This document shows positions 790-9,944 of a stretch of DNA of 9,944 nucleotides, piece by piece. Below the pieces are notes generated by a model, which was not told the origin of the DNA, did no database searches, and saw only the letters and a program-made list of their open reading frames with translations. The stretch's first letter is position 1, and every line of letters starts with the position of its first letter. The stretch is from NCBI GenBank assembly GCA_019747615.1, contig JAIEQQ010000415.1, forward strand, positions 1-9,944, written 5' to 3'. Origin of the DNA: Phycisphaerales bacterium (GTDB taxonomy: Bacteria > Planctomycetota > Phycisphaerae > Phycisphaerales > UBA1924). The translations under genes and the position numbers were made by a program.

Positions 790-867
790 AAGGGAGGGAA
801 GGGAGGGAAGGGATGGAAGGGGAGACGGGTAAAGCTCAAAGCAGCAAAGCAGCAAAGCTCAAATCGA
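790..867 (+). repeat. Composite repeat: 9-bp G-rich tandem array plus AAAGC modules
   Basis: The first part is AAGGGAGGG twice (790-798, 799-807), AAGGGATGG (808-816) and a degenerate fourth unit AAGGGGAGA (817-825). G-runs at 792-807 fit a G-quadruplex pattern (four runs of three G, loops of 1-2 bases). After GACGGGT come modules built from AAAGC plus TC or AGC: AAAGCTC (831-837), AAAGCAGC (838-845), AAAGCAGCAAAGCTC (846-860), ending in AAATCGAG (861-868). A 19-base stretch at 845-863 recurs exactly at 9576-9594 in another intergenic region, and the order of the parts is the same there, which points to a dispersed intergenic repeat family rather than chance low complexity. Confidence 0.75.
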
Positions 868-1139
868 GACCGGCTCCTCAGCGCGTGGTCGGGTGATGGT
901 GGTGCGACACGGGTTCCGCGTGCTCGCGCGTCGAGCCTTGGTGCTCTCAGCATGACTGCCTCGAGACGAACTGCGTTGATGTGCCGTGCTGTTACGACCC
1001 TCGCGTGTGCCCTTCCCTTCCTTCCGTCGCTTCGTTGAAAGAATCTGACCCGGGCAAAGCGAGCGAACACAACCTCTCCGCTCCCGTCCGTAACCTCCGC
1101 GATCCAGACCCCCCGACCACGCCTCCGCCGCCACGCGGC

Positions 1140-1145
1140 TACCTT
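1140..1145 (+). promoter_or_regulatory. Candidate -10 box TACCTT immediately upstream of pyrC
   Basis: TACCTT ends 7 bases before the pyrC ATG, and no Shine-Dalgarno-like sequence is present between it and the start codon. The spacing would put the transcription start at the ATG, giving a leaderless mRNA. No matching -35 box is visible, so this is weak on its own and is supported mainly by the similar arrangement before rpe. Confidence 0.25.
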
Positions 1146-1152
1146 CTGCCCG

Positions 1153-2454
1153 ATGTCCACACTCCTTGTTACCAACGGGCGAGTCATTGATCCATTCTCC
1201 GGCCACGACGCGGTCGCTGACATCGCGATCAAAGACGGCGTCATCGTCGAGATCGGGCGCGGGCTCTCGCGCTCACCCGCGGCGGAGGTCATCGACGCCG
1301 CGGGCCATCTGGTCACGCCCGGGCTCATCGACCCGCACGTCCACCTGCGAGAGCCGGGCAATGAGCGTGCCGAGACCATCGCCAGCGGCACGCGGGCCGC
1401 CGCCAGTGGGGGGTTCACCACCGTCTGCTGCATGCCCAACACCACGCCGGCGCTCGATAACGACACGATGGTCCACTTCGTGATGGCGAGGGCGGAATCG
1501 ACGGGTGCGTGCCGCGTGTTTCCGGTGTGCGCCGTGAGCAAGGCGCGCCGCGGCGAGGAACTCGCCGAGATCGCTCTCATGGCCCGCGCCGGCGCCTGCG
1601 GCTTTTCTGACGACGGCGATTGCATCGCGTCTGCGGGGCTGATGAGCCGCGCGCTGGCAACTGTCAAGGCCACCGGCAAGCCGCTGATGCAGCACTGCCA
1701 GGAGCCGACGATGACCCGCGGCTCGGTCATGCACGCCGGCATCACGTCCACGCGACTGGACTTGGCAGGTTGGCCCCGGGCCGCGGAAGAGATCATCATC
1801 GAGCGCGACATCCGTCTCAATCGCAACATCGGTTGTGCGTACCACGTGCAGCACATCAGCAGCGCCGAGAGCGTGAACATCGTGCGAGCGGCGCGGGCGC
1901 AGGGTCAACCAGTGACGGCCGAGGCCACGCCGCACCATCTCCTGCTCACGTGCGACCTCATCGAATCCAGCGGCTACGACACTCGCTACAAAGTCAACCC
2001 GCCGATCCGCGAGCAGGCCGACCAGGACGCGATCAAGCAAGGCATCGCCGACGGCACGATCACAGTCCTCGGCACCGACCACGCGCCGCACCCGGCGGAG
2101 TCGAAGGACGTTCCGTTCGACGCCGCGTCGTTCGGGCTGATTGGTCTTGAGAGTGCGCTGAGCCTCTACTACGAAGCCCTCGTTGAGGGCAACGTCATCG
2201 ACTGGCCGCGGCTGATCGCGATGATGACCATCGAGCCCGCCAAGCTCTGCGCCCTCGACACCCCCCCCCGCGGCCTCGGCAAACTCGCCGTCGGCGGCCC
2301 GGCCGATGTCACGATCATCGATCCGAGTGCCCGCTGGAACCTCACCCGCGCCGAACTCGCGGGCCGCTCATTCAACACGCCGTTCCTCGGGCGCGAGCTG
2401 CGGTCGCGAGCGGTGATGACGGTGGTGGGGGGCGTGGTGCGGTGGCGGCGGTGA
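1153..2454 (+). CDS. pyrC: Dihydroorotase (class I, metal-dependent amidohydrolase)
   Basis: It catalyses the reversible cyclisation of N-carbamoyl-L-aspartate to dihydroorotate, the third step of de novo pyrimidine synthesis, in the cytoplasm. The 433-residue length is normal for the class I (Aquifex/Bacillus-like) enzymes. Visible signatures are the metal-binding DPHVHLREPG (His62, His64), GFSDDG (Asp153/154, where class I enzymes use Asp as the bridging ligand instead of carbamylated lysine), His181 in HCQE, His234 in HVQHISSAE and the catalytic Asp309 in GTDHAPH. The C-terminus has the usual small beta domain (GGPADVTIID...). The ATG at 1153 gives the expected start LLVTNGRVIDP; there is no SD. 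A run of nine C at 2261-2269 lies within the coding sequence (residues TPPRG). pyrB is not adjacent here; the neighbour is an unrelated divergent lipoprotein gene, so pyrC is probably transcribed alone. Confidence 0.96.
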   Translation: MSTLLVTNGRVIDPFSGHDAVADIAIKDGVIVEIGRGLSRSPAAEVIDAAGHLVTPGLIDPHVHLREPGNERAETIASGTRAAASGGFTTVCCMPNTTPALDNDTMVHFVMARAESTGACRVFPVCAVSKARRGEELAEIALMARAGACGFSDDGDCIASAGLMSRALATVKATGKPLMQHCQEPTMTRGSVMHAGITSTRLDLAGWPRAAEEIIIERDIRLNRNIGCAYHVQHISSAESVNIVRAARAQGQPVTAEATPHHLLLTCDLIESSGYDTRYKVNPPIREQADQDAIKQGIADGTITVLGTDHAPHPAESKDVPFDAASFGLIGLESALSLYYEALVEGNVIDWPRLIAMMTIEPAKLCALDTPPRGLGKLAVGGPADVTIIDPSARWNLTRAELAGRSFNTPFLGRELRSRAVMTVVGGVVRWRR

Positions 2455-2484
2455 ACGCGGGCGTGCGGTGGCCTCCCCGCGTCT

Positions 2485-2512
2485 AGGTGGCCCGCCTGTC
2501 CCAGGCGGACCT
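2485..2512. repeat. Palindromic hairpin element downstream of pyrC
   Basis: CCGCCTG (2492-2498) pairs perfectly with CAGGCGG (2502-2508) around a TCC loop, and outside a 3-base bulge AGGT (2485-2488) pairs with ACCT (2509-2512), an 11-pair structure in total. It lies about 30 bases after the pyrC stop. It has no following T-run, so it is not a canonical intrinsic terminator. The compact palindrome with a CCGCCTGTCCCAGGCGG core looks like a dispersed extragenic palindrome, which only a genome-wide search could confirm; a role in 3'-end stability or termination of pyrC mRNA is possible. Confidence 0.5.
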
Positions 2513-2649
2513 GGCCAACCTGCAAGCACACGAGAGCTCGGGACGGGGGGGAGCGCCGACCCACACCGACCCGCGCCGGCCGTTCGCAAAGATCGTGTGA
2601 ATCGAATGACTACGGGTTTTCCTTCGCACCCGCGATGAGCATGCTCGCG

Positions 2650-2679
2650 TATGCTGTTCGCGGGAGTTCACCGAAGGAG
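2650..2679 (+). promoter_or_regulatory. Candidate -10 box and strong SD for the SUMF1-like gene
   Basis: TATGCT at 2650-2655 is a -10-like box 31 bases before the chosen start codon, and AAGGAG at 2674-2679 sits 7 bases before ATG 2687. The SD decides the start: an earlier in-frame ATG at 2651 lies inside the TATGCT box, has no SD, and would put 12 extra residues before a good signal peptide. Confidence 0.45.
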
Positions 2680-2686
2680 CGCGACG

Positions 2687-3781
2687 ATGCGTCAAAAGTT
2701 GTGGTGTGCAGTGCGATCGACCGCGTTTATCGTGAGCTTCGGGCTCATGTTGGCCGCTGCCTCGGATGTTGCGAGGGCTGATCTGCCGCCGTTGTCGGCG
2801 AGGGCGATTGCCAATGGTGCTGAGATCACCCGCGAGTTTGGGCATGAGTTTGTTACCGTCGGTGCGCCGGGGAACGCTGGCTATGAGGGTGGCCAGTTCG
2901 GCAACAACGCTGGAGCAGGCGCCGTCGCTGACCCGTTTCGTATCGCCCGCACACAAGTGACCAACGGTCAATGGGTCAACTTCGCGAACGCCTATCTCCC
3001 GCACATCATCGCGCGCGGCGACGACCCTGCCCGCCAGTGGGGCATCTTCGGCAGCGTCTTCGTTGGGTACGACGCCTCGCAGGGACGCTACGTAACCAGC
3101 CCGGGTGCCGAGAACTACGCGGCCAACATGTCATGGCGGATGGCCGCACGATACTGCAACTGGCTCTGCAACGACCAGCGAAACGACGCCGCGGCGTTCG
3201 AGAATGGCGCGTACGACACAAGTACATTTGGCAACGGTCCAAACAACACCTTCACGGATCAGATCACTCACAACGCCGGGGCACGGTTCTATATCCCGAC
3301 ACGGGATCAATGGGTCAAAGCCGCTTACTTCGATCCCAACCGGAATGGCGCCGGACAGGCGGGGTATTGGGAGTATCCACACGCGTCCAGCGTCGCTCCA
3401 AGATACGACTTTCCCGAGAATGGAGGCGAGTCCATCGCGGGGTTGGAGGGCATTCCTCTCTTTTCTTGGTACTTGCCGGTCGGTTCGTACCAGAACACGC
3501 AAAGCCCATGGGGATTGTTCGATCTTTCGGGAAGTTCAAGGGACTGGAATGAGGACACCACATCGAGGCGCGAAGATCGCTTCGTTTCCGGAAGTGGACG
3601 TCGAGATCTCGTGGCAGAATCGACAGATTCACTATACGGGGGTTTCCCGTGGAGCACTCGACCGGACGAACTGAGTGCAATCTCCGGGCTTCGTATTGCT
3701 GCGCTCATTCCCGGCCCTGGAAGCTCTGTATTGCTGATCGGTTGCGTCGCATTGGTGAACATTAAAAGGAGAAGGCGATGA
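2687..3781 (+). CDS. Exported SUMF1/FGE-sulfatase-domain protein with PEP-CTERM-like tail
   Basis: The 364-residue product begins with a signal peptide (MRQKLWCAVR..., hydrophobic core to residue 26, likely cleavage after ARA at 31). The body follows the formylglycine-generating-enzyme-like (SUMF1) fold order: FVTVGAPGN (55-63), PFRIARTQVTNGQWVNFANA (83-102), NMSWRMAARYCNWL (147-160), RFYIPTRDQWVKAAYFDPN (200-218), PVGSYQNTQSPWGLFDLSG (264-282) and SGLRIAALIP (333-342). The usual GNVWEW is replaced by GSSRDWNED and the RGGSW segment by SGSGRRD; the paired active-site cysteines of true FGE are not seen, so sulfatase activation is unlikely and a binding or structural role is more probable. The tail IPGPGSSVLLIGCVALVNIK plus RRRR (341-364) is a PEP-CTERM-like sorting signal with Gly for Glu. 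It overlaps the next gene by 4 bases (ATGA), implying one transcript and coupled translation. Exact function unknown. Confidence 0.82.
   Translation: MRQKLWCAVRSTAFIVSFGLMLAAASDVARADLPPLSARAIANGAEITREFGHEFVTVGAPGNAGYEGGQFGNNAGAGAVADPFRIARTQVTNGQWVNFANAYLPHIIARGDDPARQWGIFGSVFVGYDASQGRYVTSPGAENYAANMSWRMAARYCNWLCNDQRNDAAAFENGAYDTSTFGNGPNNTFTDQITHNAGARFYIPTRDQWVKAAYFDPNRNGAGQAGYWEYPHASSVAPRYDFPENGGESIAGLEGIPLFSWYLPVGSYQNTQSPWGLFDLSGSSRDWNEDTTSRREDRFVSGSGRRDLVAESTDSLYGGFPWSTRPDELSAISGLRIAALIPGPGSSVLLIGCVALVNIKRRRR
3766..3771 (+). promoter_or_regulatory. Strong SD for the dockerin-like gene, inside the upstream gene
   Basis: AAGGAG lies 6 bases before ATG 3778, within the last codons of the SUMF1-like gene. 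Together with the ATGA overlap of start and stop this fixes the start at 3778 and suggests translational coupling, even though the downstream frame is now interrupted. Confidence 0.75.
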
Positions 3782-5664
3782 CACTTGGAAGAACATGTCT
3801 TACGATGTTTGTGTATTTGTTCGTTGCAACTACTTGGACCAGCGGACAGTTGTTCAACGTCGGCGTGAATCCCATAGGGCCGGGCATAAACAACTCGATT
3901 ACCGAGAACAGTTTGACCCCCGGCGACTCGCTTAGTGCGAGAATCAGAATCTTCGTCGGCCATGTCCCCGGACCCACCACAATTACGCTTCGCGCGAATG
4001 ACCCAAATTACAAGCTCGAATATGTGATTGTCGAGATTGCGACGCCTCAGCAGATTCAACTTTGAATTACTGGCCCGACCGACAATGACCCGCTGTCGCA
4101 GATTGGAACTATTGATTTTGTCACGTCTGGCACGAGCAGTGGAGACCTTATTATAACCAATGTGCGAACATCTGGCAATGTCGGAACTGTCCGAGCACAC
4201 GGATGGAACCTTGCTCAAATCGGTGGATCCATTACTGGAGGCATTACGATCGTCGATCGCGATCCTAGCGCAAACTCAAACCTGCTGAATACTCGAGTGT
4301 TTGGATCAATCCTCGGAAATATCAATGTCGAGGACGGTGTAATCATCGATCTTAACGTCTCCGGCACTATCGGTACACCGACGAGTCCGGTTACGATTAG
4401 CGCAAAGAACGACGGCAACATTGCCAACTCCTTCATCACGCGCATCGTCTGCTCCGCCTTCTACGGCACGCTCCGCGGCCCCGGCTCCCTCCCCGCCCCG
4501 GAGATCGGCGAGTTCCGCACCACCAGCGGCCCGGTTGTCGGCACGCTGAACTTCGACGGCATCTACACGGCGCCTCAAGCAGGCAAGGGTCTCTTCGTCG
4601 CCACCGACCTGAACGCAAACGTCAGCGTAACGCGCGATACCGCCGGGCCCGTGCAGGTCGGCGGCAAGCTCGTCGCCGGTCGGACATTCACCATCCGCAA
4701 CTTCAACGATAACGCCTCATTCGCCGCGATCGAGCCCGGCGCGACCCTCCGCGTCAACGGCTCACTTCCCGCTGGCCGTACCCTCAGCTTCGGCACCGCC
4801 ACGCCGTTCGTGGCCGGAATCTCTGGTCAGGTCATCCTGAACGCCGCGAACACAGGGGGCACATGGACGGGCGACGTCCGAATCGGCGGACCGACCGGTT
4901 CCATTCTGTCGCCCACACCTGCGTACGACGAATCCTCGACAATTGTTGGCGGCGGTGCCGTCGGCCTCGTGCCCTTCCGCGTCAAGACGCAGGACTTCGT
5001 GCCGTACCCCGTCGCAGGAACGCGACGACTCAGCCGCTACGCGTTCACGGGCTATGTTCCGAATGATCCGGCCCGTCAGTCCGCCGCCACGATCTCGTTC
5101 TACGGTCCGGTTCGCAACGTGAACGCGTCGACGCTGAAGCTGCAATCGTTCAACCCCTCGACCTCGATATGGACCGATGTGCCCACGGCCAACTACCAGG
5201 TTCCGTTGCTGCCCGTGGCAAACACCAACGGCCGAGACTGGAAGCTCGGCGGCAACGGAACCATGACGTTTGCCTCCGGCACGTACCGCGTCCTCGCGAC
5301 GACCGGCATCCGCTGTGACATTGGCCTCGGTGCAAACGATCCGACCATCGCCGCGGAGACGGCCGTCGAGTTCTTCCTCTCGGACCAGTGCGCGAATGCG
5401 GGCATCGCAAATCCGTGCGATATCGCCTATGACAATGGTCAGCCACTTCCGCCGTTCGGACCGGCCGAGACGGGCTACGTGAACAACGGCGTTACCGAGG
5501 GCGACTACAACCTGTTCTTTGCCGGCTTCTTTGTTCCCGAGCTGTACTGCGATGTTGCCGATGACGCGGGCAATGTCTTGCCCACCACCGGTGTCAACAA
5601 CGGCGTGACCGAAGGGGATTACAACGCCTTCTTCGCCGCGTTCTTCAACGGCTGCACGAACTGA
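3778..5664 (+). pseudogene. Large exported protein with two dockerin-like units, interrupted by an in-frame TGA
   Basis: One frame runs from ATG 3778 to TGA 5662-5664 (628 codons) with a single internal stop, TGA 4063-4065 (codon 96). The first 95 codons give a signal peptide (MTLGRTCLTMFVYLFVATTW..., probable cleavage near TSG-Q) and a beta-rich start; the downstream part has no good ATG or SD at its head, the first alternative start being GTG 4162. The middle is rich in short Gly/Asn/Val turns (GSITGGITIVD, GSILGNINVEDGVIIDLNVS), suggesting a beta-solenoid, followed by GGGAVGLVPF and a beta-sandwich-like region. The C-terminus (5416-5658) has two Cys-initiated units, CDIAYD...VNNGVTEGDYNLFF and CDVADD...VNNGVTEGDYNAFF, ending NGCTN, like the GC-type dockerin tails of planctomycete secreted proteins. 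Codon use shifts sharply at 4432. Either a recent pseudogene, a readthrough gene or a sequence error; role unknown, probably surface or extracellular. Confidence 0.72.
5479..5646 (+). repeat. Duplicated 18-residue dockerin-like motif
   Basis: Two 54-base coding segments, 5479-5532 and 5593-5646, encode VNNGVTEGDYN[L/A]FFA[G/A]FF, 16 of 18 residues identical, with 12 nucleotide differences, mostly at third positions. Each is preceded by a Cys-Asp-(I/V)-Ala-x-Asp stretch and a proline-containing linker. The arrangement resembles the paired calcium-binding segments of dockerin domains, though the first-half loop is longer than a canonical EF-hand. Confidence 0.8.
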
Positions 5665-5705
5665 TCGACAGGCCCAGCGCTCACTCCACATCGCCCGTGC
5701 ACCGC

Positions 5706-5737
5706 AAGCCCTCGCCGCCCGGCGGGGGCTTTTCGTT
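5706..5737 (+). terminator. Rho-independent terminator after the dockerin-like gene
   Basis: AAGCCCTCGCC (5706-5716) pairs with GGCGGGGGCTT (5721-5731) around a GCCC loop: 11 pairs with one T-G wobble, followed by TTCGTT. It lies about 40 bases after the stop codon of the dockerin-like frame and would end the SUMF1-like/dockerin-like transcript before gap. Confidence 0.85.
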
Positions 5738-5769
5738 GGCGCGCACCCTCCAATCTCCCGCCACCCCCA

Positions 5770-5799
5770 TTCGACCTCTCGCACTCGCTCCTCTATCCT
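5770..5799 (+). promoter_or_regulatory. Candidate sigma70-type promoter for gap
   Basis: TTCGAC (5770-5775), an 18-base spacer and TATCCT (5794-5799) lie upstream of gap, giving a leader of about 110 bases. The same TATCCT hexamer precedes rpe and the pyrophosphorylase gene. The -35 match is moderate. The leader between 5800 and 5916 is strongly pyrimidine-rich on this strand; no riboswitch was recognised in it. Confidence 0.4.
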
Positions 5800-5916
5800 T
5801 GCGCAACCGCTTCCGCGGGTTTGTCAGTCGCTCTCTATATCCACCCTTGCCTCACGCAGTCTCACGGCCCACCTCCCACGCAATCCCCCTCACCCCCCGC
5901 CCTGAAAGGCCCCCAA

Positions 5917-6966
5917 ATGGCAATCCGCATCGGCATCAACGGTTTCGGTCGCATCGGTCGCCTCGTCTACCGCATCGCCGCCGAGCACGGCATCGACGTT
6001 GTCGGTGTCAACGACCTGGTCCCGGCGGACAACCTCGCGTACCTGCTCAAGTACGACACCATGCACCGCCAGTTTTCACTCAACGGCAAGCACGCCGAGA
6101 TCTCCGCCACCGCCACCGAGACCGGCGGCAGCTTCACCGTCAACGGCAAGGTCACCAAGACCACCGCGATCAAGGATCCCGCGCAGCTCCCCTGGAAGGA
6201 CATGGGCGTGAACTACGTCCTGGAGTCCACCGGGCTGTTCACGGATTTCGAGAAGGCCAGCGCCCACGTCGCCGCGGGCGCTAAGCGCGTGGTGATCTCC
6301 GCCCCGACCAAGAGCGAGCCGGCCCAGGTGCCGACGCTGGTGTTGGGCGTGAATCACGAGGTCTTTGACGCCAGCAAGCACACCGTCGTCAGCAACGCCT
6401 CCTGCACCACCAACTGCCTGGCGCCGATCGCCAAGGTCATCAACGACGCCTTCGGCCTCGATGAGGGCCTGATGACCACGATCCACGCCGCGACCGCGAC
6501 GCAGCCGACGCAGGACGGCCCGTCCAAGAAAGACTGGCGCGGCGGGCGCAACGCCTACCAGAACATCATTCCCGCCAGCACCGGCGCCGCCAAAGCCGTG
6601 ACGCTCGCGATCCCCGCGCTCAAGGGCAAGCTCACGGGCATGAGCTTCCGCGTGCCGACGGCCGATGTCTCGGCGGTGGACCTGACGTTCAAGACCGCCA
6701 AGGACACGAGCCTCGCGGAGATCAACGCCGCGATGAAGAGCGCCAGCGAGGGCGCGATGAAGGGCATCCTGGGCTACACCGAAGAGGAAGTCGTCAGCAG
6801 CGACTTCATCAGCGATCGCCGCAGCAGCATCTTTGACGCCAAGGCGGGCATCGAGCTGAACAAGCGGTTCTTCAAGGTCGTGTCGTGGTACGACAACGAA
6901 GCCGGCTACGCCGCGCGTTGCGTGGACCTGATCAAGTACATGGCCGCGAAGGACGGCGTTCAGTAA
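5917..6966 (+). CDS. gap: Glyceraldehyde-3-phosphate dehydrogenase, type I
   Basis: It oxidises and phosphorylates glyceraldehyde 3-phosphate to 1,3-bisphosphoglycerate with NAD(P) in cytoplasmic glycolysis and runs in reverse in gluconeogenesis. The 349-residue product has the Rossmann start [15 protein letters not shown] (5-19), with Asp33 of VNDL at the end of the second strand favouring NAD. The catalytic block SNASCTTNC places the active Cys at 163 and the conserved C-x3-C partner at 167; the catalytic His190 is in [10 protein letters not shown], followed by [14 protein letters not shown] and [12 protein letters not shown]. The C-terminal WYDNEAGYA is intact. ATG 5917 was chosen because [11 protein letters not shown] is the normal N-terminus; the open frame extends 96 bases further upstream only through a TTG and unlike sequence. 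AAAGG lies 7 bases before the ATG. No pgk follows; the next gene, rpe, is convergent. Confidence 0.97.
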
Positions 6967-7000
6967 GCGGCCGGAAGCGAAGACGCACGTAGACGGGAAG

Positions 7001-7036
7001 CGACCTGCGTTCTAGGTCGGGCGCTGTTGTTGCGCC
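7001..7036. terminator. Weak hairpins between convergent gap and rpe
   Basis: The 186-base gap between two convergent stops contains CGACCT/AGGTCG (7001-7006 with 7014-7019, 7-base loop) and GGCGC/GCGCC (7020-7024 with 7032-7036, 7-base loop), plus a GC-only palindrome just after. None has a T-run on either strand, so bidirectional termination here is only a guess from the gene arrangement. Confidence 0.3.
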
Positions 7037-7152
7037 GCCGGCGGCGGCTGCGTGTTCCCGTAACGCGATGCTACGGCGATTGGCCGGCGTCGTGTCTTCG
7101 GCGAGCCCCCGAGGTGACGGACCCGACTTGCGAGAGACGCTGCGCGCGACAA

Positions 7153-7854
7153 TCACGCCGGTCCGAGGCCGCGCAGGTCTCGGATGATCGCGGCGTGCTT
7201 CTCCACGGGCTTGCCGAAGATTGCCGACGCCGCCACGATGACGTCGCATCCGGCCTCGCGGACCAGTTCGGCGTTGAGCGGGTTGATGCCGCCGTCCATT
7301 TCGAGTCGCTGCACGGGCATGAGCTCGTCGCTGATCCGTTCGACCTTGCTCAGTACGTCGCGAATGAACGACTGCCCGCTGAAGCCGGGGTTAACGGACA
7401 TCACCAGGACCATGTCGAGCACCGGCAGGTGCGGAAGGACCGCGCTGGCGTCGGTGCCGGGGTTGATCGCCAGGCCCGCCGTCATGCCCTGATCGCGGAT
7501 CTTGCCGATGACCTCGGCGATGCGGCCCGCCGGGATCACCTCGGCGTGGAACGTCAGGTGATTCGCGCCCGCCTCGGCGAACGGCTTGATGAACATCTCC
7601 GGGTCGGTCACCATCAGGTGAACATCGAGAAACGCGTCGGGCAGGTGCTTGCGCACGCCGCGGCAGAGATCCGGGCCCATGGTGAGGTTCGGAACGAAGT
7701 GGCCGTCCATGACGTCCAGGTGCAGCAGATCCGCGCCCGCCGCGATCACGCCCTTGCACGCGGCGGCCATCTGGCCAAAGTCCGCCGAGAGGATCGAGGG
7801 CGCAATCAGCGGCAGCGTTCGTGGCGGGGTCGGATGGGTCAGCAGGTTGCGCAT
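7153..7854 (-). CDS. rpe: Ribulose-phosphate 3-epimerase
   Basis: It interconverts D-ribulose 5-phosphate and D-xylulose 5-phosphate in the pentose phosphate pathway as a cytoplasmic TIM-barrel metalloenzyme. The 233 residues slightly exceed the usual 215-225 because of a short N-terminal extension (MRNLLTHPTPPRT) before LIAPSILSADF. Metal and catalytic residues are all present: His45 and Asp47 in LLHLDVMDGHFVPN, His79 in DVHLMV, Asp187 in EMDGGI, with Ser20 and Met49/81/152 as in the family; VMSVNPGFSGQSF is the classic signature. The frame is open further upstream, but ATG 7854-7852 is the only plausible start, since upstream residues are low-complexity Arg/Gly. There is no SD; a TATCCT box lies 5 bases before ATG. 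Convergent with gap and divergent from the UDP-sugar pyrophosphorylase. Confidence 0.95.
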   Translation of the reverse strand: MRNLLTHPTPPRTLPLIAPSILSADFGQMAAACKGVIAAGADLLHLDVMDGHFVPNLTMGPDLCRGVRKHLPDAFLDVHLMVTDPEMFIKPFAEAGANHLTFHAEVIPAGRIAEVIGKIRDQGMTAGLAINPGTDASAVLPHLPVLDMVLVMSVNPGFSGQSFIRDVLSKVERISDELMPVQRLEMDGGINPLNAELVREAGCDVIVAASAIFGKPVEKHAAIIRDLRGLGPA

Positions 7855-7858
7855 GGTG

Positions 7859-7943
7859 CAGGATACCCGCGGCCGGCCAACGCCCCGCACCCCCCGCATC
7901 CCGCACCCGGCGCACCACGCCCGCCGCGCCGCCCGGTATCCTG
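7859..7943. promoter_or_regulatory. Divergent promoter region with mirrored TATCCT boxes
   Basis: GGTATCCTG occurs on the plus strand at 7935-7943 and on the minus strand at 7867-7859, a perfect 9-base inverted repeat 67 bases apart. Each faces its own gene: the minus copy is 5 bases before the rpe ATG, the plus copy is 48 bases before the pyrophosphorylase ATG. Both look like extended -10 elements. Neither has a convincing TTGACA-like -35 box. Confidence 0.4.
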
Positions 7944-7990
7944 TCCCTCGATCCCTCCGTGCCTTGATCCCTGGTCTCCCGGAGCCCACC

Positions 7991-9484
7991 ATGTCCAGCC
8001 CGTCGCTCGCCACCATCCGCCAATCCCTCGCCTCGATCCAGCAGGAGCACCTGCTCACGTTCTTCGAGCGGCTTGACGCGACCAAGCAGGCCCGCTTGCT
8101 GGCGAACATCGCTTCGATGAATCTCGGCGCGATCCCCGGCCTCGTGCGCGAGTACGTCCTCACCAAGCCCGCGGCCCACGGCGATTCGGAGCTCTCGCCC
8201 CCTGCCTACTACCCCGCCGATTGCACCAGCACCGCCGGGCGCGGCGCGTGGGATCGCGCACACTTTCGCGCCAAGGGCATCGAGTTGATTGCCGGCGGCC
8301 AAGTCGCGGCGTTCACCGTCGCCGGTGGCCAAGGCTCGCGCCTGGGCTTTGAAGGGCCCAAGGGTTGCTATCCCGCCGGGGCTGTTTCAAACATCCCGCT
8401 CTTTGCGTGTCTGGCCGATTGGATCATCGCGGCCCAGCGAGCCTTCTGCCCGGCAGGCGTGCGCATCCCCTGGTACATCAAGACCAGCCCGCTGTACGTG
8501 GCGCAGACGCGCGAGTTCTGCAAGCTGAAGGCCTACTTGGGCCTCGACCGTCACCACGTGATGTTCTTCCCGCAGGGCGTCATGCCGTCGTTCGACATCA
8601 CCACCGGCAAGATCCTCCTCAGCGACCTGCACGAGCCGGCGGTCAACCCCGATGGTCACGGCGGCAGTATCCGCGCGCTCATGGTCAGCGGCGCGATCGC
8701 GGACATGAAGCGCCGCGGCGTCCGCCACATCTCCTACACGCAAATCGACAACCCGCTGGTCCGCGTGATCGACCCGGTCTTCCTGGGCCTGCACTCGTTC
8801 GCGCCCGATTCCTCGGCTCAGATGAGCAGCAAGATGGTGGCCAAGGCTCACGCCGGCGAGAAGGTCGGCGTGCTGGCGCGCATGGGGGCGGGCGGCAAGA
8901 TCGGTGTCGTTGAGTACTCGGACATGCCGCGGGCGCTGACCGAGGCGGTCGATGCGAGCGGGCGGCTCGTCTTCAACGCCGGCAACGCGGCGGTGCACGT
9001 GCTCTCAGTCGAGTTCGTTGAGCGGCTGAACGGTGGGGGCGGCGGCGGTGGGGGGGCGGGGGGCCAAGGCGCGTCGATGCCGTATCACCGCGCCGAGAAG
9101 AAGGTGCCGCATGTTGACCTGACCACCGGCCAGCGCGTCGAGCCGACATCGAACAACGCGGTGAAGCTCGAGACGTTCGTGTTCGATGCGCTGGCGATGT
9201 GCGAGTCGTCGATTGTCATGGAGTCGCTGCGTGTCGATGAGTTCGCGCCGATCAAGAACGCGACGGCGCCGGGAGTGTCAGATTCGCCGCAGACCTGCCG
9301 CGAGATTCAGACGGCGCGAGCCGCGGCGTGGCTGGAGCGCGCCGGCGTGCGCGTCCCGCGGAAGGCCACCGGCGAGCCCGACTGCGTTCTGGAGCTGCCG
9401 CCGAGCACCGCGATGGACATGGAGTCGCTGATCGCCCAGGGGCCGGCGATGGACATCGTGGCGGGGGCGAAGATTGTGGTGTGA
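7991..9484 (+). CDS. UDP-sugar pyrophosphorylase, UDPGP type 1 family (UAP1/AGX-like)
   Basis: It is predicted to make a UDP-sugar from UTP and a sugar 1-phosphate, most likely UDP-GlcNAc (or UDP-glucose), in the cytoplasm. The 497-residue product has the nucleotide-binding loop VAGGQGSRLGFEGPKG (110-125), WYIKTS (161-166, usually WYIMTS), FFPQGVMPSFD (192-202), NPDGHGGSIRAL (219-230), YTQIDNPLVRVIDPVFLG (249-266), KVGVLAR (291-297), VVEYSDMPRA (306-315), FNAGNAAVH (328-336), YHRAEKKVPHVD (365-376), KLETFVFD (392-399) and DEFAPIKNATAPG (416-428). These match eukaryotic UAP1/AGX in order and sequence. A glycine-rich insert (348-360) precedes YHRAEKK. GGAG 6 bases before ATG 7991 supports this start; the longer open frame upstream crosses the rpe promoter region. 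Substrate choice cannot be settled here: bacteria normally use GlmU for UDP-GlcNAc. Confidence 0.9.
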   Translation: MSSPSLATIRQSLASIQQEHLLTFFERLDATKQARLLANIASMNLGAIPGLVREYVLTKPAAHGDSELSPPAYYPADCTSTAGRGAWDRAHFRAKGIELIAGGQVAAFTVAGGQGSRLGFEGPKGCYPAGAVSNIPLFACLADWIIAAQRAFCPAGVRIPWYIKTSPLYVAQTREFCKLKAYLGLDRHHVMFFPQGVMPSFDITTGKILLSDLHEPAVNPDGHGGSIRALMVSGAIADMKRRGVRHISYTQIDNPLVRVIDPVFLGLHSFAPDSSAQMSSKMVAKAHAGEKVGVLARMGAGGKIGVVEYSDMPRALTEAVDASGRLVFNAGNAAVHVLSVEFVERLNGGGGGGGGAGGQGASMPYHRAEKKVPHVDLTTGQRVEPTSNNAVKLETFVFDALAMCESSIVMESLRVDEFAPIKNATAPGVSDSPQTCREIQTARAAAWLERAGVRVPRKATGEPDCVLELPPSTAMDMESLIAQGPAMDIVAGAKIVV

Positions 9485-9544
9485 GGGGGGCGAAGGGATC
9501 GGGGGACCAAGGGAACAAGGGACCAAGGGTCCAGGGAACGCGGG
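9485..9544 (+). repeat. 8-bp G-triplet tandem array after the pyrophosphorylase gene
   Basis: Starting directly after the stop codon, runs of G recur at regular intervals; from 9503 the units are GGGACCAA, GGGAACAA, GGGACCAA, GGGTCCA and GGGAACGC, with a partial unit beyond. At least six runs of three or more G with loops of 4-5 bases fit a G-quadruplex pattern on the plus strand. This is the first part of the composite repeat region that extends to 9714. Confidence 0.7.
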
Positions 9545-9576
9545 ATCGAGCCGCGGCAACGCGACGGTCAGTGCCC

Positions 9577-9668
9577 AAAGCAGCAAAGCTCAAAGCAGCA
9601 AAGCACAAAGCAGCAAAGCTCACGGCAGCAAGTCGACCCCCGACGTCGAGCGATTGAGCTTTGAGCTT
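9577..9668 (+). repeat. 15-bp AAAGC-module tandem repeat with an inverted partner
   Basis: Three 15-base units AAAGCAGCAAAGC[T/A]C lie at 9577-9591, 9592-9606 and 9607-9621. AAGCTCAAAGC at 9586-9596 is exactly inverted at 9658-9668, so an 11-pair stem with a 61-base loop is possible. A 19-base stretch (9576-9594) is identical to 845-863 upstream of pyrC. It could act as an mRNA 3' structure for the pyrophosphorylase gene, but no T-run follows. Confidence 0.75.
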
Positions 9669-9670
9669 CT

Positions 9671-9714
9671 CCCAGTGCCCAGTCCCCAGTGCCCAGTGCC
9701 CAGTGCCCAGTGCC
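9671..9714. repeat. Heptamer tandem repeat CCCAGTG, six copies
   Basis: Six contiguous 7-base units run from 9671 to 9712: CCCAGTG, CCCAGTC, then four CCCAGTG, followed by CC. On the minus strand this is a CACTGGG array leading directly into GAGAAGCTCAAAGCTCAATCG-type sequence, the same order of parts as the G-rich/AAAGC elements on the plus strand. The copies are nearly identical, as expected from slippage expansion; similar extragenic heptamer arrays (STRR) are known from cyanobacteria. Confidence 0.85.
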
Positions 9715-9779
9715 TTCTGTTTCCCCCCAAACGCACACGCGGCGGTCGGGCGAGTGATCGCCAGAACGCCGCGTGCAAA

Positions 9780-9863
9780 TGCCCAGGAGAGGACTTGAAC
9801 CTCCATGCCGGTGAAGGCGCTACCACCTCAAGGTAGTGCGTCTGCCAATTTCGCCACCTGGGC
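9780..9863 (-). tRNA. tRNA-Leu(GAG)
   Basis: Read on the minus strand, GCCCAGG (9863-9857) and CCTGGGC (9787-9781) form a perfect 7-pair acceptor stem. The D stem is GCG/CGC with a loop containing the GG pair, the anticodon stem CTACC/GGTAG encloses TTGAGGT with anticodon GAG (reads CUC/CUU leucine codons), a long variable arm marks a class II tRNA, and the T arm is GGAGG-TTCAAGT-CCTCT. The discriminator base is A (position 9780), as required by leucyl-tRNA synthetase. CCA is not encoded, since the following bases are TTT. Total 84 bases without CCA. Confidence 0.96.
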
Positions 9864-9880
9864 TCTATGGGTGGGAAGGG

Positions 9881-9909
9881 ATGCTAGGCCAGCGCGGGCG
9901 GCTTGGCCA
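9881..9909 (-). promoter_or_regulatory. Candidate promoter for tRNA-Leu
   Basis: On the minus strand TGGCCA (9909-9904), a 17-base spacer and TAGCAT (9886-9881) precede the mature tRNA by 17 bases. Each hexamer matches four of six consensus positions and the spacing is ideal. The -35 box lies in one arm of the hairpin at 9902-9928. Confidence 0.35.
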
Positions 9910-9928
9910 TCGCAGAGCGGTGGCCAAG
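9902..9928. repeat. Strong 12-pair hairpin upstream of tRNA-Leu
   Basis: CTTGGCCATCGC (9902-9913) pairs with GCGGTGGCCAAG (9917-9928) around an AGA loop, with one T-G wobble. No T-run follows on either strand. It may be the end of a gene beyond the right edge, a dispersed palindrome, or a site that overlaps the tRNA promoter. Confidence 0.6.
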
Positions 9929-9944
9929 TGCTGGACAGCTATCG

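Follow-up and report, generated by a model that had tools for sequence, protein, structure and literature searches.

We tentatively propose, at close to even confidence, that a dispersed tandem-word repeat of non-autonomous type is present twice in the window (the whole stretch analysed, 9,944 nucleotides of Phycisphaerales DNA). It would have been copied into permissive gaps, where such copies slip, decay and are overwritten. The unit would be a short array whose word measures 7-8 bases (AAAGCTC/AAAGCAGC in this case), and the neighbouring G-rich arrays would be other words.

All sequences named in an earlier note on this DNA were found in the window, and the arrays it described are real. Its count of three instances of a single element has to be lowered to two elements, however, the third instance being the opposite arm of the second. 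In the first element, the AAAGC units (831-863) and the cap AAATCGAG (861-868) form a single-armed AAAGCTC/AAAGCAGC array (831-868, plus strand) at the tip of an imperfect hairpin of about 390 bases (fold of 680-1140, z -5.1). Its left side is built of an outer arm of CGCGGAG-type words (715-764, plus) and of the 9-bp G-rich array GAAGGGAGG as inner arm (784-821, plus; TRF 789-821, period 9, 3.7 copies), its right side of an inner arm beginning with CCCTTCCCTTCC (1010-1038, plus) and an outer arm (1057-1107, plus), the outer arms being inverted repeats with orthologous arms in the sibling genome G002. Complementarity is 92% for 715-727/1095-1107, 82% for 731-764/1057-1090 and 90% for 784-812/1010-1038. 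In the second element (fold of 9480-9780, z -4.0), the AAAGCAGC/AAAGCTC array at 9576-9631 (plus; TRF period 15, 3.7 copies) is the left arm and pairs with AAGCTCAAAGCTCAATCG, read on the minus strand at 9651-9668, as right arm, in agreement with the inverted pair described in the note. Two separate word families lie beside it: an 8-bp GGGANCAA array (9485-9537, plus; TRF 9503-9537, 4.5 copies), which lies directly 3' of the stop codon of a UDPGP-family gene, and a 7-bp CACTGGG array (9671-9714, minus; TRF as CCCAGTG, 6.3 copies). The identity of 19 bases noticed between 845-863 and 9576-9594 was confirmed; this 19-mer, CAAAGCAGCAAAGCTCAAA, has four matches in the window with at most two mismatches, a number reached by 0 of 200 shuffles. 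AAAGC doublets number eight in the window, against a mean of 0.002 and a maximum of 1 in 500 Markov surrogates. Among known RNA families, only a tRNA passed the threshold in the window, and a plasmid search with positions 9480-9725 gave zero matches. In IMG/VR, three consecutive CACTGGG units were seen in 1 stretch and three AAAGCTC units in 6 stretches.

In Phycisphaerales, AAAGC words form a dispersed family: 28 to 143 AAAGC doublets are present in 7 of 9 MAGs, compared with 1 to 5 for the reversed pattern. The G-rich arrays are words separate from it. CACTGGG forms 32 doublets in G002, 50 in G003 and 0 in the control. The AAAGC words have no G triplet, whereas the neighbouring CACTGGG and GGGACCAA words carry one. 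Word sets are genome-specific, and the same words, 7-8 bases long and often alternating, turn up at numerous loci, control counts being low; counted by eye, these genomes hold about a dozen of them. GGGAATC adjoins an AAAGC array at one locus (L260). In the open-access literature, word hairpins of Phycisphaerales were not found described. Within 150 bases, a G/C-triplet array accompanies 9 of 60 intergenic AAAGC elements (the two of the window included), compared with 24 of 285 control gaps, whereas tandem arrays of any kind were found near 30 of the 60, compared with 65 of 285 control regions, with a density of 4.67 per kb beside the elements and 1.60 per kb in controls. Since so few have a G/C-triplet neighbour, the fixed modular element of the earlier note, a G array followed by AAAGC in set order, is unsupported and we reject it; AAAGC copies without G arrays, which the note itself had named as evidence against its reading, are largely what was found.

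In 24 copies, an AAAGC array is followed by a spacer and then by the reverse-complement array. Copies are single or inverted-paired, the unit often ends in a cap AAAT(C/T)(A/G)A, and inverted pairs enclose a spacer of about 25-75 bases, which allows the strand to fold into a hairpin. An origin of arms by fold-back copying from their own partners was unsupported, arms showing no excess of identity to their partner: the mean arm-to-arm score was 18.6 within the 24 elements and likewise 18.6 when arms were scored against those of different elements in the same genome (172 pairs); among 20,000 permutations, 13,810 reached the observed sum.

The dispersed, mostly extragenic repeat that the earlier note had expected was borne out in related Phycisphaerales. 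Sixty of 67 elements lie outside genes as predicted by our own codon-score script, in a count that lists orthologous copies of G001 and G005 separately, although about 84% of the G002 sample is coding. This non-random sample of 394 kb, made up of the syntenic stretch and of the initial 20 kb of each of 19 larger contigs, contained 4 AAAGC arrays and provided the gene-density background, some elements and some control gaps. The repeat is not wholly extragenic, 7 of the 67 copies being within genes. Copies cluster 3' of stop codons: 25 of 66 distances to a gene 3' end were 19 bases or less, compared with 5 of 42 distances to a gene 5' end, and convergent gaps, which make up 5,412 of the 55,307 intergenic bases of the G002 sample, contain 18 of 54 elements. 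Copies are also located in the divergent gap upstream of pyrC. In-frame copies were observed in dnaE, purM, mnmG, gltX, rimO, clpB and a kbl-type gene, and tandem arrays were found at 20 of 46 gene slots, compared with 11 of 386 equal-length pieces elsewhere in the same frames. Tracts of the KAQSSKAQSS type in DnaE, PurM or ClpB are probably repeat insertions.

The word occupying a given slot differs between genomes. G002 has a CCGATTG array where the window has the CCCAGTG array, with similar flanks, and the words of the ortholog of the 8-bp array behind the UDPGP-family gene have changed. For element 1, G002 holds an orthologous long hairpin (fold z -9.8), in which the corresponding AAAGCTC run is longer; the G002 ortholog of the second element folds no better than shuffles (z 0.12). 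Between near-siblings the arrays vary in both length and word, as the note had supposed, and the AAAGC part, which it took as the fixed module, is replaceable, other words occupying orthologous slots. At slots selected where G001 or G005 carry AAAGC, words differ between genomes at purM, rimO, gltX and clpB; G005 and G006 share a word at purM, where their arrays differ by one 15-base unit, and G001 and G006 share one at groES-groEL. The latter slot, examined in 8 genomes, has a hairpin in 5 of the 6 with groES upstream. Three word classes each were distinguished at groES-groEL and ppa, and at least two each at lolD and mnmG, with classes assigned by eye (an automatic word-class table mis-binned words and was excluded) and in hairpins picked by arm complementarity, so that one word per hairpin is partly built in. 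In the mnmG comparison, 15 of 30 loci were left out, the script having failed to span them. No inverted repeat of z>4 was found in 53 of 78 slot segments, with a z that favours the observed sequence, taken at its best split point whereas shuffles kept that split. No insertion event was caught and no target duplication was seen at these slots, where the element-free genomes and relatives are too diverged to give a clean or close empty site.

Under the proposed origin, new copies would arise by copying of words, through replication slippage and ectopic, hairpin-assisted copying. Their targets would be places tolerating extra DNA, such as the 3' side of stop codons, gaps between operon genes and length-variable protein positions, presumably loops, provided that the frame stays open. 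Copies, presumably close to neutral, would afterwards change by slippage, decay and be overwritten by other words, the present word of a slot having in this case replaced an earlier one. Against copying, a permissive position could also expand locally. Array lengths varying at fixed places, as in purM of G005 and G006, are what purely local replication slippage in permissive gaps would give, but the presence of the same words at many loci of several genomes, with low controls, makes an origin without any copying between loci highly improbable. The stop-codon bias and the slots shared by several genera could also mean a selected 3'-end or intercistronic role. The elements might then be functional RNA hairpins, in which the stem is selected behind the stop codon and any stem-making word serves, with a role like that suggested for REPs, in termination, processing or the stability of the mRNA; we consider this unlikely, but a serious possibility. 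The preference for convergent gaps and for the 3' ends of genes, the groES-groEL hairpin made of three different words and the strong fold of element 1 in G002 are in agreement with it, and some changed pairs are still pairable after one change (8 in element 1 and 10 in six other orthologous pairs). However, broken pairs exceed both-side compensations in counts given without chance expectation: taking G002 as reference, element 1 has 21 of the former and 4 of the latter, and taking the window, 14 and 3 (40 of 132 falling in gaps); the six other pairs, with the first genome as reference, have 20 and 1. A selected RNA stem was not retained, these compensations being few; the poor fold of the second element in G002, the slot segments without strong inverted repeat and the copies within genes and upstream of pyrC also argue against it.

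A MITE- or REPIN-like family of transposons, with the word arrays as its ends and with some unrecognised transposase mobilising it in trans, is unlikely. Inverted pairs with family-like arms and an inner cap, the coexistence of single and paired copies as in REPs, and presence or absence among genomes favour it. Unlike in a MITE, however, the arms are alike and the internal sequence mostly is not: z exceeds 4 in 91 of 106 left-arm pairs and in 13 of 106 spacer pairs, in a comparison whose rows list six elements twice, and spacers are mostly unlike yet not fully so (mean pairwise z 2.29). The transposase link was examined for the Y1 family. Y1_Tnp matches number one or two per genome in the AAAGC-rich G002, G003 and G006, with a best E of 7e-6 to 2e-8, whereas the AAAGC-poor G007 and G294 carry nine each, and an AAAGC doublet was found within about 1.5 kb at 0 of the 20 Y1_Tnp loci fetched, out of 79 matches. 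A REP/RAYT origin is thus unsupported, copy numbers not tracking. Homologous recombination exchanging alleles between species, each word having arisen once per slot and whole slot regions having been swapped among lineages, could explain why the word class of slots follows no single relationship (G005 with G006 at purM, G001 with G006 at groES-groEL). It leaves unexplained one word at dozens of loci per genome, and different words at one slot in close relatives with similar flanks, and is very unlikely. It is also doubtful that these bacteria possess an active process by which words of 7-8 bases, drawn from a small lexicon particular to each genome, are written as tandem copies in either orientation into fixed permissive slots, located behind stop codons and in protein loops, and by which one word can be overwritten by another across the genome. 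If true, such a system would copy specific words, by templating or hairpin priming. It would differ from transposition as well as from simple slippage, and be the same in kind as the cyanobacterial and Xanthomonas heptamer repeats.

Repeats of 6-9 bases are called rarely reported (PMC4692102), and the literature compared here offers no agreed account of their origin. Phycisphaerales add several words per genome and conserved slots whose word differs between species, some of them within essential proteins, for which there is no doubt about orthology and frame; the spread of words is therefore testable by strain comparison. Moreover, intergenic hairpins in these bacteria need not be regulatory. 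As described by Rehm et al. 2015 (PMC4692102), G-rich heptamers are GGGAATC in Xanthomonas and GGGGA(C/T)T in Nostoc. The Phycisphaerales words resemble them as tandem words of about 7 bases (here 7-8) dispersed over genomes and over-represented outside genes and near stop codons, but differ in that the AAAGC words lack the G triplet of a G-quadruplex-capable word, in the several words per genome and differing words at one slot, and in the A-rich word hairpins and in-frame copies in housekeeping genes. The P6b stem of the Nostoc tRNA-Leu(UAA) group I intron is reported to consist of one of two 7-base words, whose classes repeatedly replace each other at the same site (PMC4476775); stems of words whose class (by eye) differs at the same site are common to both systems, P6b being one site in an intron RNA whereas the present slots are in protein genes and intergenic, with more words. 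Rickettsia palindromic elements, given as about 150 bp, in ten families and in-frame in unrelated metabolic genes in a MITE review (PMC10969869), share the in-frame palindromic DNA in protein genes; in Phycisphaerales, by contrast, copies have arm words in common but mostly not their spacers, and the same slots can be taken by other words. REPs, described as palindromes of 20-40 bp tagged GTAG or CGTC with stems of 5-13 bp (PMC3733652), are likewise single or inverted-paired downstream of genes and sometimes within them, but the Phycisphaerales repeats are tandem words, with no linked RAYT among the 20 loci checked. Finally, the TAACTGA heptamer of Beggiatoaceae, for which a single word mostly upstream of start codons and one indirect repeat are reported (PMC4679880), also forms dispersed intergenic arrays common to distant lineages with a few copies within ORFs, whereas Phycisphaerales have multiple words, biased to the 3' side of stop codons.

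The arrays described by the earlier note are present in the window. The first of its three claimed instances of a G-rich array followed by AAAGC modules and ATCG is found where it was placed, but as one part of a larger imperfect hairpin of ~390 bases (element 1; DNA fold z -5.1), with inverted repeats at 715-764/1057-1107 and 784-812/1010-1038 as arms and the AAAGC array (831-868) at the tip. Element 1 separates two divergently oriented genes, one on the minus strand that starts at 666 and gave no match in a Pfam search, the other a dihydroorotase gene with its start at 1153. The third instance exists as sequence but is not a separate element, being the right arm of element 2 (9651-9668) together with a CCCAGTG array. 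The left arm of element 2 is at 9576-9631, and the hairpin (fold z -4.0 in the window) follows the stop of a UDPGP-family gene (gene end 9484) and precedes a tRNA-Leu. On the 3' side of this tRNA (minus strand), an 18-base hairpin at 9736-9775 (89% complementary, 4-base loop), in sequence 97% identical to the near-sibling genome G002, is perhaps the terminator or processing hairpin of the tRNA transcript, distinct from the repeats.

Elsewhere in the window, ~629 same-frame codons (3778-5664) are broken by a single TGA at 4063-4065 (ORFs 3778-4065 and 4162-5664, the latter with no Pfam match), the alternatives being a pseudogene, a sequence error or readthrough. A C-terminal coding motif with NNGVTEGDYN (5418-5655), repeated within the gene and matched at several places in stretch L197 of G002, is suggestive of a shared module for sorting or anchoring. 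At ~2485-2512, GGTGGCCCGCCTGTCCCAGGCGG is similar to a different palindromic repeat, GGCAGGCGGGACGCCTGCC, which by eye adjoins AAAGC elements in stretches L008, L015, L027 and L254; a similar palindrome occupies the rimO slot of G307.

In G002 (record JALHNK; UDPGP-family protein 95% matching), synteny spans window positions 7155-9944 and 28-2415. Around element 2 the flanking sequence is 90% identical on one side and 97% on the other, and its parts come in the same order, while in G002 its G-rich 8-mers differ, its AAAGC array is shorter, a CCGATTG array stands in the position of the CCCAGTG array, and its fold is not better than shuffles (z 0.12). Element 1 keeps its long stem in G002 with a stronger fold (z -9.8), the apical array being an AAAGCTC run in G002 and mixed units plus ~130 bases in the window.

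In a scan of genome contigs, the shared 19-mer matched 44 stretches, 38 from Planctomycetota records (33 titled Phycisphaerales); the other six (two Flavobacterium, Bryobacterales, Nitrosomonadales, Bacteroidetes, Methylohalobius) showed no array in the context inspected. Counted on both strands against the reversed pattern, AAAGC doublets per genome were 45/3 in G001, 143/1 in G002, 112/5 in G003, 28/3 in G004, 42/2 in G005, 34/5 in G006, 13/9 in G007, 47/3 in G008 and 3/1 in G009. A match is present in 268 of 298 genomes of the class, most of them near their own control as judged by eye, and a hand count gives 13 that reach 15 matches or more and a ratio to the control of three or higher; since few genomes clearly exceed their control, the distribution is patchy. 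AAAGCTC x3 arrays also occur in six IMG/VR stretches (L422-L427), for which viral and host origin are both possible. Among 17 genomes, CACTGGG doublets number 50 in G003, 32 in G002, 24 in G004, 8 in G008, 6 in G001, 4 each in G210 and G246, 3 in G308, 1 each in G005 and G294 and none in seven (control 0). CCAAAKGG doublets number 23 in G234, 16 in G007, 11 in G005, 9 in G210, 8 in G246, 6 in G308, 4 each in G001, G003 and G006, 2 each in G004 and G307 and none in six, AAAGC-rich G002 included (control 1 over all).

The typical copy in G001 and G005 reads AAAGCTCAAAGCAGCAAAGCTCAAATCAAGGC - spacer - GCCTTGATTTGAGCTTTGCTGCTTTGAGCTTT, and a search of 72 stretches surrounding AAAGC words yielded 24 such inverted pairs. 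The retrieved stretches of G001, G002, G003 and G005, together with the window, hold 67 distinct arrays or elements, 60 of them outside predicted genes and seven inside; the coding share of the G002 sample is 84%. The 54 extragenic elements with both neighbours called occupy 30 co-directional, 18 convergent and 6 divergent gaps, against 32,460, 5,412 and 17,435 intergenic bases, respectively, in the G002 sample. A gene 3' end lies within 19 bases in 25 of 66 cases and a 5' end in 5 of 42, and in seven cases the final two bases of a TAA stop are part of the element. Other tandem arrays are denser beside AAAGC elements than in control regions (4.67 vs 1.60 per kb; 30/60 vs 65/285 regions), as are G/C-triplet arrays (0.96 vs 0.36 per kb; 9/60 vs 24/285). 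In L260 of G002, a GGGAATC heptamer run (~1470-1540) adjoins an AAAGC array; the Xanthomonas repeat is built of this word.

AAAGC arrays also lie within open frames of dnaE (L107, L042), purM (L111, L026), mnmG (L131, L115), gltX (L014), rimO (L110), clpB (L108) and a kbl-type gene (L010). By NCBIfam, the mnmG, purM, gltX, rimO and clpB products score above curated cut-offs, the dnaE piece passes the superfamily (polc) but not the equivalog cut-off, and the kbl-type product matches glycine C-acetyltransferase below its cut-off. The insertion in this last gene (PLP-dependent acyltransferase) is an in-frame composite in which AAAGC words come after CCAAATGG/AAAGGGCC words. Five genes, each compared in 8 to 11 genomes, give 46 gene slots, of which 20 contain a tandem array of period 6-10; for pieces of equal length taken from other parts of these frames, the figure is 11 of 386. 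The test does not pick up the purM arrays of G005 and G006, where 7/8-base units are mixed, and it scores as arrays two period-6 gltX runs (G005, G307) that resemble ordinary codon runs.

The word at one slot differs between genomes (classes for purM, rimO, clpB, gltX and dnaE read by eye). The purM slot holds AAAGC in G005 and G006 and CCAAAGGG-type words in G001 and G308; G246 and G307 have GGGGCAAA-type words there, G294 and G316 have others and G210 has none. At rimO, G005 carries AAAGC, G001 GGCAAAT and G294 AGCGAAA; the words of G246 and G308 are CCAAAGGG-type and that of G006 is CCAAATGG-type, while G307 has a GC-rich palindrome and nothing clear is present in G007, G316 and G234. At clpB, G005 has AAAGC and G001 a decayed copy of it; G307, G294 and G308 have CAAATCG-type words, G007 and G246 GGCATCAA-type ones, and G310 has no word. 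The gltX slot has AAAGC in G001 and AGCGAAC in G294, with six others lacking a clear word, and dnaE has AAAGC in G001 and G005 and no word in nine others. Among 15 loci spanning the mnmG slot, two carry AAAGC (G001, G005), one CCAAAGCG (G210) and 12 neither (including G006, G007, G246, G307 and G308); AAAGC words are present at this slot in G003 as well (L283). Between groES and groEL, AAAGC occurs in G001 and G006, CCAAAKGG in G005 and G307, AGCGAA in G294 and no word in G316, the upstream gene in G246 and G308 being a different one. Downstream of ppa the words are AAAGC (G005), CCAAAKGG (G001) and CGCAGAG (G234), and upstream of lolD AAAGC (G005) and AGCGAA (G294); the pdhC, lipA and gltA hairpins have AAAGC words in both G001 and G005.

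An inverted repeat with z>4 is present in 25 of 78 slot segments and absent from 53. For 21 hairpins with z>6 at seven slots, left arms score 0.61 with their own right arm and 0.36 with right arms found at that slot in other genomes (50 pairs), and 0 of 20,000 within-slot permutations reach the observed sum, although the choice of hairpins by arm complementarity makes this excess partly one of construction; the informative point is that hairpins built of different words occupy one slot.

Against maintenance by selection on the structure, broken pairs outnumber compensated ones in element 1, in raw counts that carry no chance expectation: with G002 as reference, 71 of 105 long-range pairs are unchanged, 8 survive one change, 4 show compensation on both sides, 21 are broken and 1 falls in a gap, and with the window as reference, the same classes hold 67, 8, 3, 14 and 40 of 132. 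In six further orthologous comparisons, again with the first genome as reference, 10 pairs survive one change, 1 is compensated and 20 are broken. Against a standard transposon, left arms are alike (91 of 106 pairs with z>4) while most spacers differ from one another (z>4 in 13 of 106 pairs, with a mean z of 2.29 and six elements entered twice). As to a Y1 transposase, Y1_Tnp exceeds its cut-off in 16 of 16 genomes searched, yet its number does not track AAAGC richness, with one or two matches in AAAGC-rich G002, G003 and G006 (best E 7e-6, 7e-7 and 2e-8) and nine each in AAAGC-poor G007 and G294, and no AAAGC doublet was seen at the 20 loci fetched out of 79 matches. Within a genome, the two arms of one element resemble each other no more closely than do arms taken from separate elements (18.6 vs 18.6; 13,810 of 20,000 permutations reach the observed value). 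A mechanism that copies the words could be at work, and we consider it about as probable as all its rivals combined.

The repeats are real and dispersed and, though biologically odd, belong to a broad kind that is already known; their description is firm. The open-access literature searched gave no description of repeats that combine several words per genome, a word differing at one slot and in-frame positions in essential genes. The Nostoc trnL intron P6b stem, with one of two 7-base words and repeated replacement at one site (PMC4476775), the Rickettsia palindromic elements, inserted in-frame into genes (PMC10969869), and the repeats of Rehm et al. each share part of the features described here.
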